NCBI RefSeq assembly: GCF_000737695.1
Contig: NZ_JPRM01000003.1
Location: 124,001 to 188,000 of the forward strand
Reading direction: 5' to 3'
Origin: Flavobacterium hydatis
Lineage (GTDB): Bacteria; Bacteroidota; Bacteroidia; Flavobacteriales; Flavobacteriaceae
DNA: 64,000 nt
The translations under genes and the position numbers were made by a program. Shown here piece by piece: positions 30,530-62,540 of the stretch; positions within the stretch are counted from its first letter, which is position 1, and the number at the start of each line of letters is the position of its first letter. A model generated the notes under the pieces. That model saw nothing but the letters and a program-made list of their open reading frames with translations. It had not been told where the DNA came from and ran no database searches.

Positions 30530-30895
30530 AGAGGTTCAAAGGTTTTTGAAAAAAGGTTCAAAGACGCAAAGGTTTTCTGTAGAGACGCACCGCAGTGCGT
30601 CTACGTAATATAGGTTTTCCATAATCTGAACGTATGCGAGGCGGAGCCCTACAAGTAACTAACATAACGTATTCCTCTAGATTGTGGAGCAACTAACGGA
30701 GATCCCTCAATTCTTCGGGATGACAGGATTGTCTACATAACCATAGCCCATGGTTTCAACCATGGGATACCAATTAAGATAATACGCTACAATAATACAT
30801 TGCGCTCCAACGGTTGAAACCGTAGGCTATGGTTGTAATGTGTTATCAATTACTCACGAACTAGTCTACAGATTGTTTTGCTGACAAAAGACAAT
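30530..30895. other. Non-coding gap filled with palindromic repeats
   Basis: 366 nt without a gene. It contains 'caaagacgcaaagg' words of the same type as 2.7 kb, a hairpin AGACGCAC/GTGCGTCT at 30583-30602, 'gaggcggagccctac' similar to a palindrome inside trhO (60.8 kb), and the AACCATAGCC inverted repeat at 30739-30834. Confidence 0.6.
30739..30834. repeat. Nested palindromic inverted repeat, AACCATAGCC family
   Basis: The left arm at 30739-30766 (AACCATAGCCCATGGTTTCA, then ACCATGGG) matches the reverse complement of the right arm (30807-30834) at 24 of 28 positions. Each arm is itself a short palindrome (CCCATGGTTT/AACCATGGG; CCAACGGTT/AACCGTAGG). A cloverleaf-like transcript could form. 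Confidence 0.65.
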
Positions 30896-59725: not shown

Positions 59726-61114
59726 ATGCAACTGTATAACACTTTGAGCGCAGAAGAAAGAGCCATCATGATTGATGATGCTGGTAAACAACGATTAACG
59801 TTGTCTTTTTATGCGTATGCCAAAATTCAAGATCCCAAAAAATTTCGCGATGATTTATTTGTAGCCTGGAACAAGCTCGATGCTTTAGGCCGAATTTATG
59901 TTGCTAACGAAGGTATAAATGCTCAGATGAGTATTCCTGCCGAAAATTTGGAAGCTTTTAGAGAAACTCTTGAAATCTATGATTTCATGAAAGGTATACG
60001 ATTGAATGAAGCAGTAGAACATGATGACCATTCATTTTTAAAATTAACCATTAAAGTTCGTCACAAAATTGTCGCTGACGGTTTAAACGACGAAACTTTT
60101 GATGTTACTGATATAGGCGTTCACCTGAAAGCCAAGGAATTCAATGAAATTCTTGATGATCCAAATACCATTGTTGTTGATTTTAGAAATCACTATGAAA
60201 GTGAAGTTGGGCATTTTAAAGGAGCTATTACTCCAGACGTAGAAACTTTTAGAGAGAGTTTACCAATAATAAACGATCAACTTCAGAATCATAAAGAGGA
60301 TAAAAACCTGGTAATGTATTGCACAGGTGGAATTCGTTGTGAGAAAGCTAGTGCTTACTTTAAGCATCAGGGTTTTAAAAATGTTTATCAATTAGAAGGC
60401 GGAATCATTAATTACGCCAAACAAATTGAAGCTGAAGGTTTAGAAAGTAAGTTCATTGGGAAAAACTTTGTATTCGATAATCGTCTTGGCGAAAGAATCA
60501 CCGAAGATATTATTTCGCAATGCCATCAATGCGGAAAACCTTGCGACAATCACACCAATTGCGAGAATGACGGATGTCATTTGTTGTTTATTCAATGTGA
60601 TGATTGCAAAACTGCAATGGAAAATTGCTGTTCTACAGAATGTTTAGACATTATACACATGCCACTAGTTGATCAGGTTCGATTGAGAACTGGAAAACAA
60701 GTTGGAAATAAAGTTTTTAGAAAAGGAAAATCAGATAGTTTGAAATTCAAACATTCTGGAGAGTTACCTAACGCTTCTTTGGCTACGGCAGAAACCCGAG
60801 GCGGAGCCGAACGGAGCGTAGCTAAACCAGTCGATATTCGCCAAAAAATAAAAGTAAAAAAAGTACTTCTTGGTAAAGCAGAGCATTATTATGTAAAAGC
60901 GCAAGTAGGTCTTTTTACTATCGAAAATCATGAACTAAACACTGGTGATACCATCTTAATCTCTGGTCCTACTACAGGAAATCAAGAATTGGTTTTAGAA
61001 AAAATGATTGTTAATGAAGAAGTTGCTACTATTGCTAAAATTGGCGATAGAGTTACTTTTGAGGTTCCATTTAGAATTAGATTGTCTGATAAGGTATACA
61101 AGATTTTAGATTGA
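59726..61114 (+). CDS. trhO: TrhO tRNA uridine-34 hydroxylase with an added TrhP-type C-terminal domain
   Basis: 462 residues; plain TrhO proteins such as E. coli YceA are about 350. TrhO makes 5-hydroxyuridine at position 34 of tRNA with oxygen. The N-terminal ferredoxin-like part (LSFYAYAKIQDPKKFRDDLF, YVANEGINAQMSIP) is followed by a rhodanese domain with C199 in MYCTGGIRCEKAS, and a Cys-rich zinc-like region (CHQCGKPCDNHTNC...CCSTEC). After a linker, residues 375-462 form a domain about 53 percent identical by eye to the C-terminal domain of TrhP next door. This domain is not part of canonical TrhO. The linker holds a GC-rich palindromic repeat. Confidence 0.92.
   Translation: MQLYNTLSAEERAIMIDDAGKQRLTLSFYAYAKIQDPKKFRDDLFVAWNKLDALGRIYVANEGINAQMSIPAENLEAFRETLEIYDFMKGIRLNEAVEHDDHSFLKLTIKVRHKIVADGLNDETFDVTDIGVHLKAKEFNEILDDPNTIVVDFRNHYESEVGHFKGAITPDVETFRESLPIINDQLQNHKEDKNLVMYCTGGIRCEKASAYFKHQGFKNVYQLEGGIINYAKQIEAEGLESKFIGKNFVFDNRLGERITEDIISQCHQCGKPCDNHTNCENDGCHLLFIQCDDCKTAMENCCSTECLDIIHMPLVDQVRLRTGKQVGNKVFRKGKSDSLKFKHSGELPNASLATAETRGGAERSVAKPVDIRQKIKVKKVLLGKAEHYYVKAQVGLFTIENHELNTGDTILISGPTTGNQELVLEKMIVNEEVATIAKIGDRVTFEVPFRIRLSDKVYKILD
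60779..60825. repeat. Palindromic repeat inside the trhO coding region
   Basis: Arms TTGGCTACG (60779-60787) and CGTAGCTAA (60817-60825) pair with one mismatch; between them lies CGAGGCGGAGCCGA. The segment is markedly richer in GC than its surroundings and adds about 16 codons in frame (ATAETRGGAERSVAK). The core GAGGCGGAGCC is also seen in the repeat gap at 30.6 kb. Confidence 0.6.
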
Positions 61115-61276: not shown

Positions 61277-61298
61277 CCATTTGAATAATAAATCAAAA

Positions 61299-62540
61299 AT
61301 GGCAATTAACAATAAAATTGAACTTATGGCTCCCGCAGGGAGTTTTGAGTCACTTCAGGCTGCGCTAGATAATGGTGCTGATTCTATTTATTTTGGTGTA
61401 GAACAACTCAACATGAGAGCACGTTCAACCGTGAATTTCACCATGGATGATTTGCAAGAAATTGCCAATCGTTGCGCTACCAAAAAAGTACGAAGCTATC
61501 TTACTTTGAACACTATTATTTACGATCATGATTTATCGATTGTAAAAACATTACTAAACAAAGCCAAAGAAGCCAATATTACTGCTGTAATTGCATCTGA
61601 CCAAGCTGTAATTGCAATGGCAAGAACAATTGGTATGGAAGTACATATCTCAACCCAACTTAATGTTACAAATATCGAAACCATAAAATTCTACAGTTTA
61701 TTTGCAGATACAATGGTTTTAAGTCGTGAATTGAGCTTACGTCAGGTAAAAAGTATCACAGAACAAATTGAGAAAGAACAAATAAAGGGCCCGAACGGAA
61801 ATTTAGTCGAAATCGAAATTTTCGGACATGGTGCTTTATGTATGGCTGTTTCGGGTAAATGTTATTTGAGTTTACATTCGCATAACTCCTCAGCAAATCG
61901 TGGCGCTTGCAAGCAAAACTGCCGTAAAAAATATACCGTTATAGATCAGGAAACAGGTTTCGAAATCGAAGTCGATAACGAATACCTTATGTCTCCTAAA
62001 GATTTATGTACGCTAGACTTCCTTGATCAGGTAATCGACTCTGGAATTCAGGTTCTTAAGATAGAAGGCCGTGGTCGTGCACCCGAATATGTAGCAACGG
62101 TAATAAAAGCCTACCGCGAAGCTATTGATGCTTACTATAATGGAACTTTCTCTAAAGAAAAAATTGCAGTTTGGATGGAAGCTTTAAACACCGTTTACAA
62201 TCGTGGTTTTTGGTCAGGATATTATCTTGGACAAGAATTAGGAGAATGGAGTGATATTCCGGGATCAGCAGCAACCCAAAAGAAAGTCTATGTAGGTAAA
62301 GGAACTCATTTCTTTCCAAAAGCTGAGGTTGGGCAATTTAAAATTGAAGCTTACGATATTAAAATTGGAGACAGAATTCTTGTAACAGGACCAAGCACAG
62401 GAGCTCAGGAAATGGTAATCGACGAAATGTTCGTAAACGACATTGTAGCCGATAAAGCTACAAAAGGCGATGATTGTACCTTCAAATTACCTTTCAGAAT
62501 CAGAATGTCTGATAAATTATATAAAATCGTAGAGGCATAA
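61299..62540 (+). CDS. trhP: TrhP, prephenate-dependent tRNA uridine-34 hydroxylase (U32 peptidase family)
   Basis: 413 residues from the ATG at 61299. U32 signatures: APAGSFESLQAALDNGADSI, then YFGVEQLNMRARSTVNFT, and IEIFGHGALCMAVSGKCYLS. The four cysteines in ALCMAVSGKC and GACKQNC are the expected iron-sulfur ligands. Residues 326-413 are the U32 C-terminal domain (KVYVGKGTHFFPKAEVG...PFRIRMSDKLYKIVE). TrhP makes the same 5-hydroxyuridine as TrhO without oxygen, using prephenate. The stop overlaps the ferredoxin ATG by one base. Confidence 0.92.
   Translation: MAINNKIELMAPAGSFESLQAALDNGADSIYFGVEQLNMRARSTVNFTMDDLQEIANRCATKKVRSYLTLNTIIYDHDLSIVKTLLNKAKEANITAVIASDQAVIAMARTIGMEVHISTQLNVTNIETIKFYSLFADTMVLSRELSLRQVKSITEQIEKEQIKGPNGNLVEIEIFGHGALCMAVSGKCYLSLHSHNSSANRGACKQNCRKKYTVIDQETGFEIEVDNEYLMSPKDLCTLDFLDQVIDSGIQVLKIEGRGRAPEYVATVIKAYREAIDAYYNGTFSKEKIAVWMEALNTVYNRGFWSGYYLGQELGEWSDIPGSAATQKKVYVGKGTHFFPKAEVGQFKIEAYDIKIGDRILVTGPSTGAQEMVIDEMFVNDIVADKATKGDDCTFKLPFRIRMSDKLYKIVEA

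Follow-up and report, generated by a model that had tools for sequence, protein, structure and literature searches.

The window, meaning the whole 64,000-nucleotide stretch of Flavobacterium hydatis DNA analysed here, carries near its right end a trhO-like gene whose linker holds a short inserted element. The gene, the parts of the element and the sequences next to it are as follows.

59726..61114, forward strand: host gene, a TrhO-like tRNA U34 hydroxylase ORF of 462 residues with a C-terminal extension (ORF list, Pfam).
60778..60787, forward strand: left arm of the palindrome of the preliminary description, consisting of ancestral trhO codons outside the element (orthologs lacking the insert).
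60794..60823, forward strand: inserted element of 30 nt, ACCCGAGGCGGAGCCGAACGGAGCGTAGCT, codons 357-366 (TRGGAERSVA), missing in 19 other orthologs and belonging to a genus-wide family.
60794..60799, forward strand: constant left part ACCCGA (conserved columns; fixed by the search pattern around variable hairpins).
60800..60808, forward strand: variable hairpin 1, here GGC-GGA-GCC (its middle pair changes in a compensatory manner; the whole segment is swapped in other species).
60809..60817, forward strand: constant GAACNGAGC, whose AGC is the 5' arm of hairpin 2 (conserved columns, gapped search).
60815..60823, forward strand: constant mini-hairpin 2, AGC-GNA-GCT, here with a GTA loop (conserved columns, G-first loop).
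60824..60826, forward strand: AAA codon immediately after the insertion point, on its 3' (target) side, also present in empty trhO and pyrF sites.
60854..61111, forward strand: C-terminal extension, approximate limits, with homology to the C-terminal end of the U32 peptidase-family gene next to it.

Pfam assigns the domains UPF0176_N, Rhodanese and Rhodanese_C to the TrhO-like ORF, and its solved relatives are 9j5o (residues 18-307) and 4f67 (residues 23-255). Residues 377-461 are 53% identical to the C-terminus of the U32-family ORF next door (61281-62540). In a protein search, 20 of 25 TrhO relatives cover the extension in the alignment; in the other five, which belong to other families of the order, the alignment stops at approximately residue 325-340. 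TrhO and the U32 enzyme TrhP are both tied to U34 hydroxylation, so the common extension could plausibly be a shared tRNA- or partner-binding domain.

A GC-rich, stop-free segment does lie in frame between the Rhodanese_C part and the C-terminal extension, as the preliminary description had it, but its boundaries had been misread; comparison with 19 orthologs gives 10 codons (30 nt), not the claimed 16 or so (47 nt). Comparing the linker among relatives for presence or absence, as that description proposed, bore out the idea. Only one of 20 whole-length orthologs drawn by a protein search of relatives, the F. hydatis gene of the window, has the ten extra codons, and the nearest relative (G004, 97% identical) is insert-free and reads ...SLATAE-KSVDI. 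The insert starts on a codon boundary (codon 357), between ...SLATAE and K (...GCAGAA / AAA); the empty site of G004 reads GCCGAG^AAATCAGTC at the DNA level. Seven other trhO genes have an insert at the same site (L005, L012, L013, L094, L108, L157 and L160), a biased sample, as they were found via the element. At trhO and likewise at pyrF (GGA^AAAGAA) the net gain is 30 nt with no duplicated bases, and AAA is already there in the empty sites of both genes (G004 and others for trhO). AAA or AAT directly follows the element in all 20 copies read in ORFs of at least 180 residues. Because element and target have an A in common, the cut may lie one base further right. In an alignment of 83 instances, for which the search pattern itself fixed 25 inner bases, conservation spans AC(C/T)CGAGG to GCTAA(A/T); outside the element the printed columns stay at or below 0.51 bit, and those nearest that value, at -10 to -8, favour A. 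The family form is AC(C/T)CGA, a variable hairpin and GAACNGAGCGNAGCT, directly before AA(A/T).

The inverted repeat described earlier, TTTGGCTACG / CGTAGCTAAA (60778-60787 / 60817-60826), is present, but it is partly accidental and its left arm falls outside the element. That arm is made of the codons of SLATA, which also occur in insert-free relatives (TTTGGCTACA in G004), and as these codons are ancestral the palindrome is largely accidental; in the insert-bearing trhO genes of L012 and L013 the match is only partial (TTTGGCTACA vs GGAGCTAAA). RNA folding of the 66-nt region is modestly better than that of shuffles (z -2.0; 4 of 200 shuffles equally good). The element is in fact built of two modular mini-hairpins, with no single long palindrome. 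The word GAGGCGGAGCC is exact at 60798-60808, and a repeat at 30.6 kb had been taken to share it. There are two exact copies in the 64 kb (window shuffles give a mean of 0.13 at one mismatch) and no more than these two in the whole 5.88-Mb genome, where the reversed control occurs once. The word at 30638 is an isolated 11-mer; it was rejected as a sister element, and full-element searches of the genome match the trhO copy only.

The expected further copies were thus absent from the same genome (at up to three mismatches), but many exist across the genus. A 23-mer at up to two mismatches is found in 30 of 199 genus genomes, and a 32-nt consensus at up to three mismatches in 154 of 398 Flavobacterium genomes, with up to 15 copies (G021); the reversed pattern has no match in any of the 398. 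A chance GC-rich insertion private to F. hydatis would fit the lack of a second copy in that genome, but it is refuted by this congeneric family and its clean control, and its probability is practically nil. When hairpin 1 was left free (7-37 nt permitted) between the constant ends, a gapped search matched 55 of 199 genomes with no match in the control, the most copies, 59, being in G016. The exact 28-base pattern occurs in 111 stretches of a collection holding one genome for each of 84,980 species: by title 79 are Flavobacterium, 10 Flavobacteriaceae, 8 Bacteroidetes/Bacteroidota MAGs and 14 others. Twelve of these others are MAG contigs of 31-40% GC labelled Limnohabitans, Nitrotoga, Klebsiella and Bifidobacterium, which are probably mis-binned flavobacterial contigs; the remaining two are Chryseobacterium koreense and a Lentimicrobium MAG. 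Order-wide, the gapped pattern without mismatches is present in 5 of 395 genomes, three of the same genus and two of another family. No such element in Flavobacterium was found in the titles and abstract openings of the open-access papers listed in literature searches, most subscription papers falling outside them.

Covariation was examined in 115 distinct sequences from 150 listed consensus matches, a set not controlled for kinship. The middle pair of hairpin 1, formed by columns 8 and 14, reaches a mutual information of 0.75, against 0.21 for the next of the 496 column pairs. The pair is GC in 91 sequences, CG in 18, AT in 2, TA in 1, TG in 1 and mispaired in 2; a single inherited change would not readily give the three pair types beyond GC and its wobble, and the three-mismatch limit of the search works against seeing double changes. 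Columns 3 and 20 have a weaker C-G/T-A association, and hairpin 2 is too invariant in the 115 sequences to give a signal. The same constant ends also enclose quite different hairpins: GACCCATTGGAACAAATGGGTC and relatives in G016, GGCTTTTGCC in G013 and GGCGAAAGCC in G168. Of 38 distinct variable segments in the loci read, 31 close with at least three pairs (G-T counted), and the mean of 3.7 pairs per segment compares with 0.6 after shuffling, where none of 1000 means went above 1.03. With the first two loop bases of hairpin 2 left free, G came first in 44 of 45 distinct elements. Such covariation would also be expected of an RNA. We lean to folded DNA because, as the available text of PMC4686876 describes, DNA mini-hairpins with a GNA or GNNA loop on a G-C stem are extraordinarily stable. 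The mini-hairpin d(GCGAAGC) treated there likewise has a GNA loop, a closing C-G pair and a free N; its setting in that text is aptamer chemistry, whereas here the hairpin is part of a putative mobile element.

Merging of the loci that hold the exact pattern, in genus genomes and the species collection, left 123 instances with distinct context. Sixty-four lie in stop-to-stop ORFs of at least 180 residues, in 28 clusters, and 59 lie outside. The ORF criterion is mechanical and a leader copy passed it: L093, in the trhO cluster, lies upstream of the trhO start codon. Neither this copy nor L083, a +1-frame copy at the edge of its ORF, counts as evidence of coding. The 64 copies are read in + frame 0 in 59 cases, in minus frame 1 in four and in +1 in one. 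Since +0, +1, -0 and -1 are all normally open, the excess of + frame 0 is not due to stops. Three of the four minus-frame-1 copies are in the signal-peptide region of a nucleotidase; a reversed element stands in frame near a 5'-nucleotidase-like signal peptide (GLAPLCSAAPRVSL) in L088, L163 and L164. In the favoured frame the added peptide, TRGxAExSxA, is short and hydrophilic. The host proteins are unrelated to each other. Twenty representative ORFs (seven further cluster representatives were left out) were scanned against NCBIfam; 18 have matches at E <=1e-10 and 13 score above the curated cut-off, namely pyrF, mutY, truA, a TroA-like receptor, argS, infB, ade, priA, rho, lipA, leuS, parB and glmM. 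Several element-bearing genes are, we assume, probably essential.

Length and location go together. The 63 copies read from the gapped search are 28-43 nt long (canonical 30 nt). Of the 22 whose length is a multiple of three, 17 are in ORFs of at least 180 residues, all in + frame 0; among the 41 of other lengths, three are in such ORFs, in three different frames and probably by chance overlap, and 38 are outside (17/22 vs 3/41, Fisher p 2e-8). This sample includes 40 stretches hand-chosen from the listed matches, several for length and hairpin, their gene context being then unknown, and 8 of the 17 coding copies occupy gene sites already in the set of 123. From this frame filter, insertion is most simply gene-blind, with selection acting afterwards.

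pyrF provides a sample drawn by protein and not by element. It was found in 100 of 101 genus genomes and 90 loci were read, 10 low-ranked or partial ones being left out. Five have the full insert (+30 nt), three a half insert, one another insert and 80 none (L267 and L290 scored so by the pattern test only), and one (L293) is unread. The inserts are all at one codon junction. The half forms are 15 nt, five codons (TRGEA, TKGEA and SRVEV), and are the expected remnant of a deletion between the two GCGNAGC words. At the same junction, pyrF of L236 (G017) has a different four-codon insert, NVSDSLGGKELY, where others read NTNGKELY. An old full copy, L235, keeps 9 of 10 residues of a typical copy with 3 of 10 third codon positions changed. 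In this sample, silent-site conservation is 0.80 in the element vs 0.62 in the flanks, from five copies only; the 96-100% obtained for pattern-found copies was discarded, being built in by the search pattern. A pyrF DNA tree of 96 rows (9 included because they carry the element), which has long-branch warnings, requires at least 11 changes to explain presence of the element, gains and losses being inseparable. Copies in one gene share their variable bases above chance (four positions, each with 0-3 of 2000 shuffles), so the distribution is partly inheritance of old insertions combined with loss rather than fresh jumping. We read it as old inherited insertions that were lost repeatedly, perhaps along with a little re-insertion or exchange of alleles; movement is not directly observed in it.

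The single reading frame of 59 of the 64 long-ORF copies, together with the residues kept in L235, could point to a selected protein module, in which TRGxAExSxA is a useful tag or linker that spread for its peptide. Against this, the free positions 11, 20 and 26 are second codon positions, at which the residue changes (G/E/A/V, R/Q/L), and the hairpin has been maintained through compensatory changes that in some cases alter residues. A peptide module also sits badly with unrelated host proteins, with the 59 of 123 copies outside long ORFs and with lengths that are unable to keep the frame. We regard it as highly improbable.

We consider it likely that the insert belongs to a selfish repeat of Flavobacterium that is miniature, non-autonomous and structure-forming. 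A repeat of mobile type is supported by the presence/absence pattern, by the unrelated sites across the genus and by in-frame copies in many genes. The observed features are the constant ends, the swappable hairpin, the AA(A/T) side, the gain of 30 nt in trhO and pyrF and the scattered, unrelated sites inside and between genes. Insertion would be gene-blind, and selection would purge frame-shifting copies and those whose added peptide does harm. The remaining copies would drift, become shorter when their two GCGNAGC words recombine, or be lost. With less certainty, the element may move as folded single-stranded DNA, given the GNA triloop of the constant hairpin, and a trans-acting enzyme may recognize the hairpins and read the AAA/TTT side as target. 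The ten residues added to TrhO, which lie in the linker ahead of its extra C-terminal domain, are probably near neutral.

The analysis turned up no mobilizing enzyme: neither Y1_Tnp nor RVT_1 is present in all carriers tested. An IS200/IS605 or RAYT-type mini-element would be single-stranded DNA moved by a Y1 transposase that cuts beside TTT/ATT on the other strand. The lack of target duplication in trhO and pyrF, the one-sided target, the small hairpins and the asymmetric ends all agree with this, Y1_Tnp is found in 144 of 199 genus genomes, and a Y1 gene lies beside trhO in G179, G006 and G014. However, G016 (98% complete), with the most copies, has no Y1_Tnp match, nor have the carriers G029, G030, G034 (60% complete) and G038. 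Twelve Y1 loci, taken from more than 150 Y1 matches among those listed and scanned for approximately 1.5 kb on each side, are all element-free, whether at up to 8 mismatches to the canonical sequence or, once the hairpin was left free, at up to 4 changes in the constant parts. The three trhO-side Y1 genes are flanked by a different palindrome, of type CCCACGGTTTCAACCGTGGG. We judge this route unlikely. Y1 genes of approximately 150 residues follow trhO directly or closely in L012 (830-1174), L038 (2898-3239) and L048 (3173-3517), and the window itself holds, at about 30745-30830, a palindrome CCCATGGTTTCAACCATGGG similar to the CCCACGGTTTCAACCGTGGG type.

The same evidence bears on the REP sequences. 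The GTAG/CGTC REP are families of 20-40 bp hairpins with RAYT transposases, and intragenic ones occur inside replication, repair and tRNA pseudouridine synthase genes, according to the available text of PMC3733652; 'flavobacter' does not occur in the main text of that paper. Short hairpin repeats in families, some of them intragenic, are thus a shared trait. In contrast to REP, the present ends are AC(C/T)C and AGCT, with no conserved GTAG or CGTC (GTAG arises only if the free loop base is T), AA(A/T) is fixed on one side, and the RAYT-type (Y1_Tnp) gene, which many carriers have, is missing from others.

A reverse-transcribed, SINE-like mini-element, a folded RNA whose 3' AAA primes at TTT, would account for an end directly before AAA/AAT, and 8 of the 18 genomes tested have RVT_1, among them G016, G120 and G092. 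The other 10 have no RVT_1 match, and these include the carriers G168 and G148 (both 100% complete) as well as G013. Rfam gives no family at threshold in the 3.3-kb stretch, with one sub-threshold match elsewhere in it, and GNA loops are known for their hyperstability in DNA. We take this origin to be very unlikely. Spread of a fold-back sequence by replication template switching or gene conversion, with no dedicated enzyme, is in keeping with the low copy number in most genomes, the microhomology at AAA and the 15-nt half forms; but the unrelated sites, sharp 30-nt ends and constant termini suggest recognition over chance switching, and we hold such spread to be quite unlikely.

Returning to the selfish repeat, the earlier comparison with palindromic elements in rickettsial genes holds for its core idea, a repeat that landed in coding DNA and is tolerated there, but not for size and end structure. 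RPE are 105-146 bp long with terminal inverted repeats and long stem-loops, and have been found as intragenic insertions in 19 reading frames of Rickettsia, as stated in the available text of PMC2229807. Both kinds occur between genes and in frame in conserved protein genes (here 64 of 123 in ORFs of at least 180 residues). Unlike RPE, the present element is 30 nt (28-43) with two mini-hairpins and no long stem-loop, and the Flavobacterium ends AC(C/T)CGA / GNAGCT are not complementary and form no terminal inverted repeat. It works like an RPE and fails the defining features tested; the two are set apart by description and not by sequence comparison. MITE are also non-autonomous, short and scattered, but the present element lacks terminal inverted repeats and, in trhO and pyrF, target duplication. 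The protein-coding palindromic repeats of Wolbachia are reportedly in-frame selfish repeats of a class comparable to RPE; PMC2229807 cites a report on them and another from Methanocaldococcus.

In-frame selfish repeats are already known from Rickettsia and Wolbachia, and intragenic REP from several other bacteria. What is described here is a new genus-wide family of protein-coding mini-repeats with a demonstrable frame filter: the element is much smaller, the genus is large and free-living, and copies of a length not divisible by three, rare in genes, provide a natural control. It is possible, although we lean slightly the other way, that they form a new class of non-autonomous mobile DNA, of Flavobacterium and a few related genera, in which constant single-stranded ends and a GNA mini-hairpin accompany a swappable second hairpin, what moves is the folded single strand, and versions with a length of 3n give recurrent ten-residue inserts in conserved proteins of free-living bacteria. 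The inserts of pyrF, trhO, mutY and truA in many species are comparable cases of tolerating ten extra residues, and the constant ends with the swappable hairpin are a concrete handle for finding the mobilizing enzyme.

Copies outside long ORFs stand in a 7-nt periodicity, with a lag-7 self-match of 0.33-0.38 in the flanks vs 0.27 at 700-900 nt; the heptamer arrays are, for example, of AAAGTCG or AAACCTG, and the element stands before AAA. Apparent 7-nt direct repeats (at least 6 of 7 matches) surround 11 of the 59 copies outside long ORFs vs 2 of the 64 inside; we read them as pre-existing heptamer arrays, although they could be true target duplications. Around 18 G016 loci, a search for a recurrent gene (ORFs of at least 80 residues) gave one long match only, between L339 and L344 (241 residues, 59%; 2 of 18). 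The same loci have 82 pairwise DNA matches longer than 70 nt, of which the 40 listed are mostly 70-210 nt and one is 791 nt.

Arrays with the unit AAANNNN (AAAGTCG, AAACCTG, AAATCGT, AAATTCC) are seen in intergenic loci such as L339, L342 and L347, and their NNNN varies from one genome to another. The trhO linker of L054 (G001) has another insertion, a heptamer array (CCAACAC)n coding for PTPNTQHPIPNTQHPTS-like residues. A second hairpin repeat, approximately TACCTGAAGTCCACYGGACTTCCTCCTYTTAATNTC and itself before AAA, lies directly or shortly upstream of the element in L024, L101, L120, L121, L123, L130, L132, L134, L146, L152 and L170; L101 and L130 each have two tandem copies of it, and changes in its stem are compensatory (AAGCCCACTGGGCTT, CTGCCACTGGCAG).
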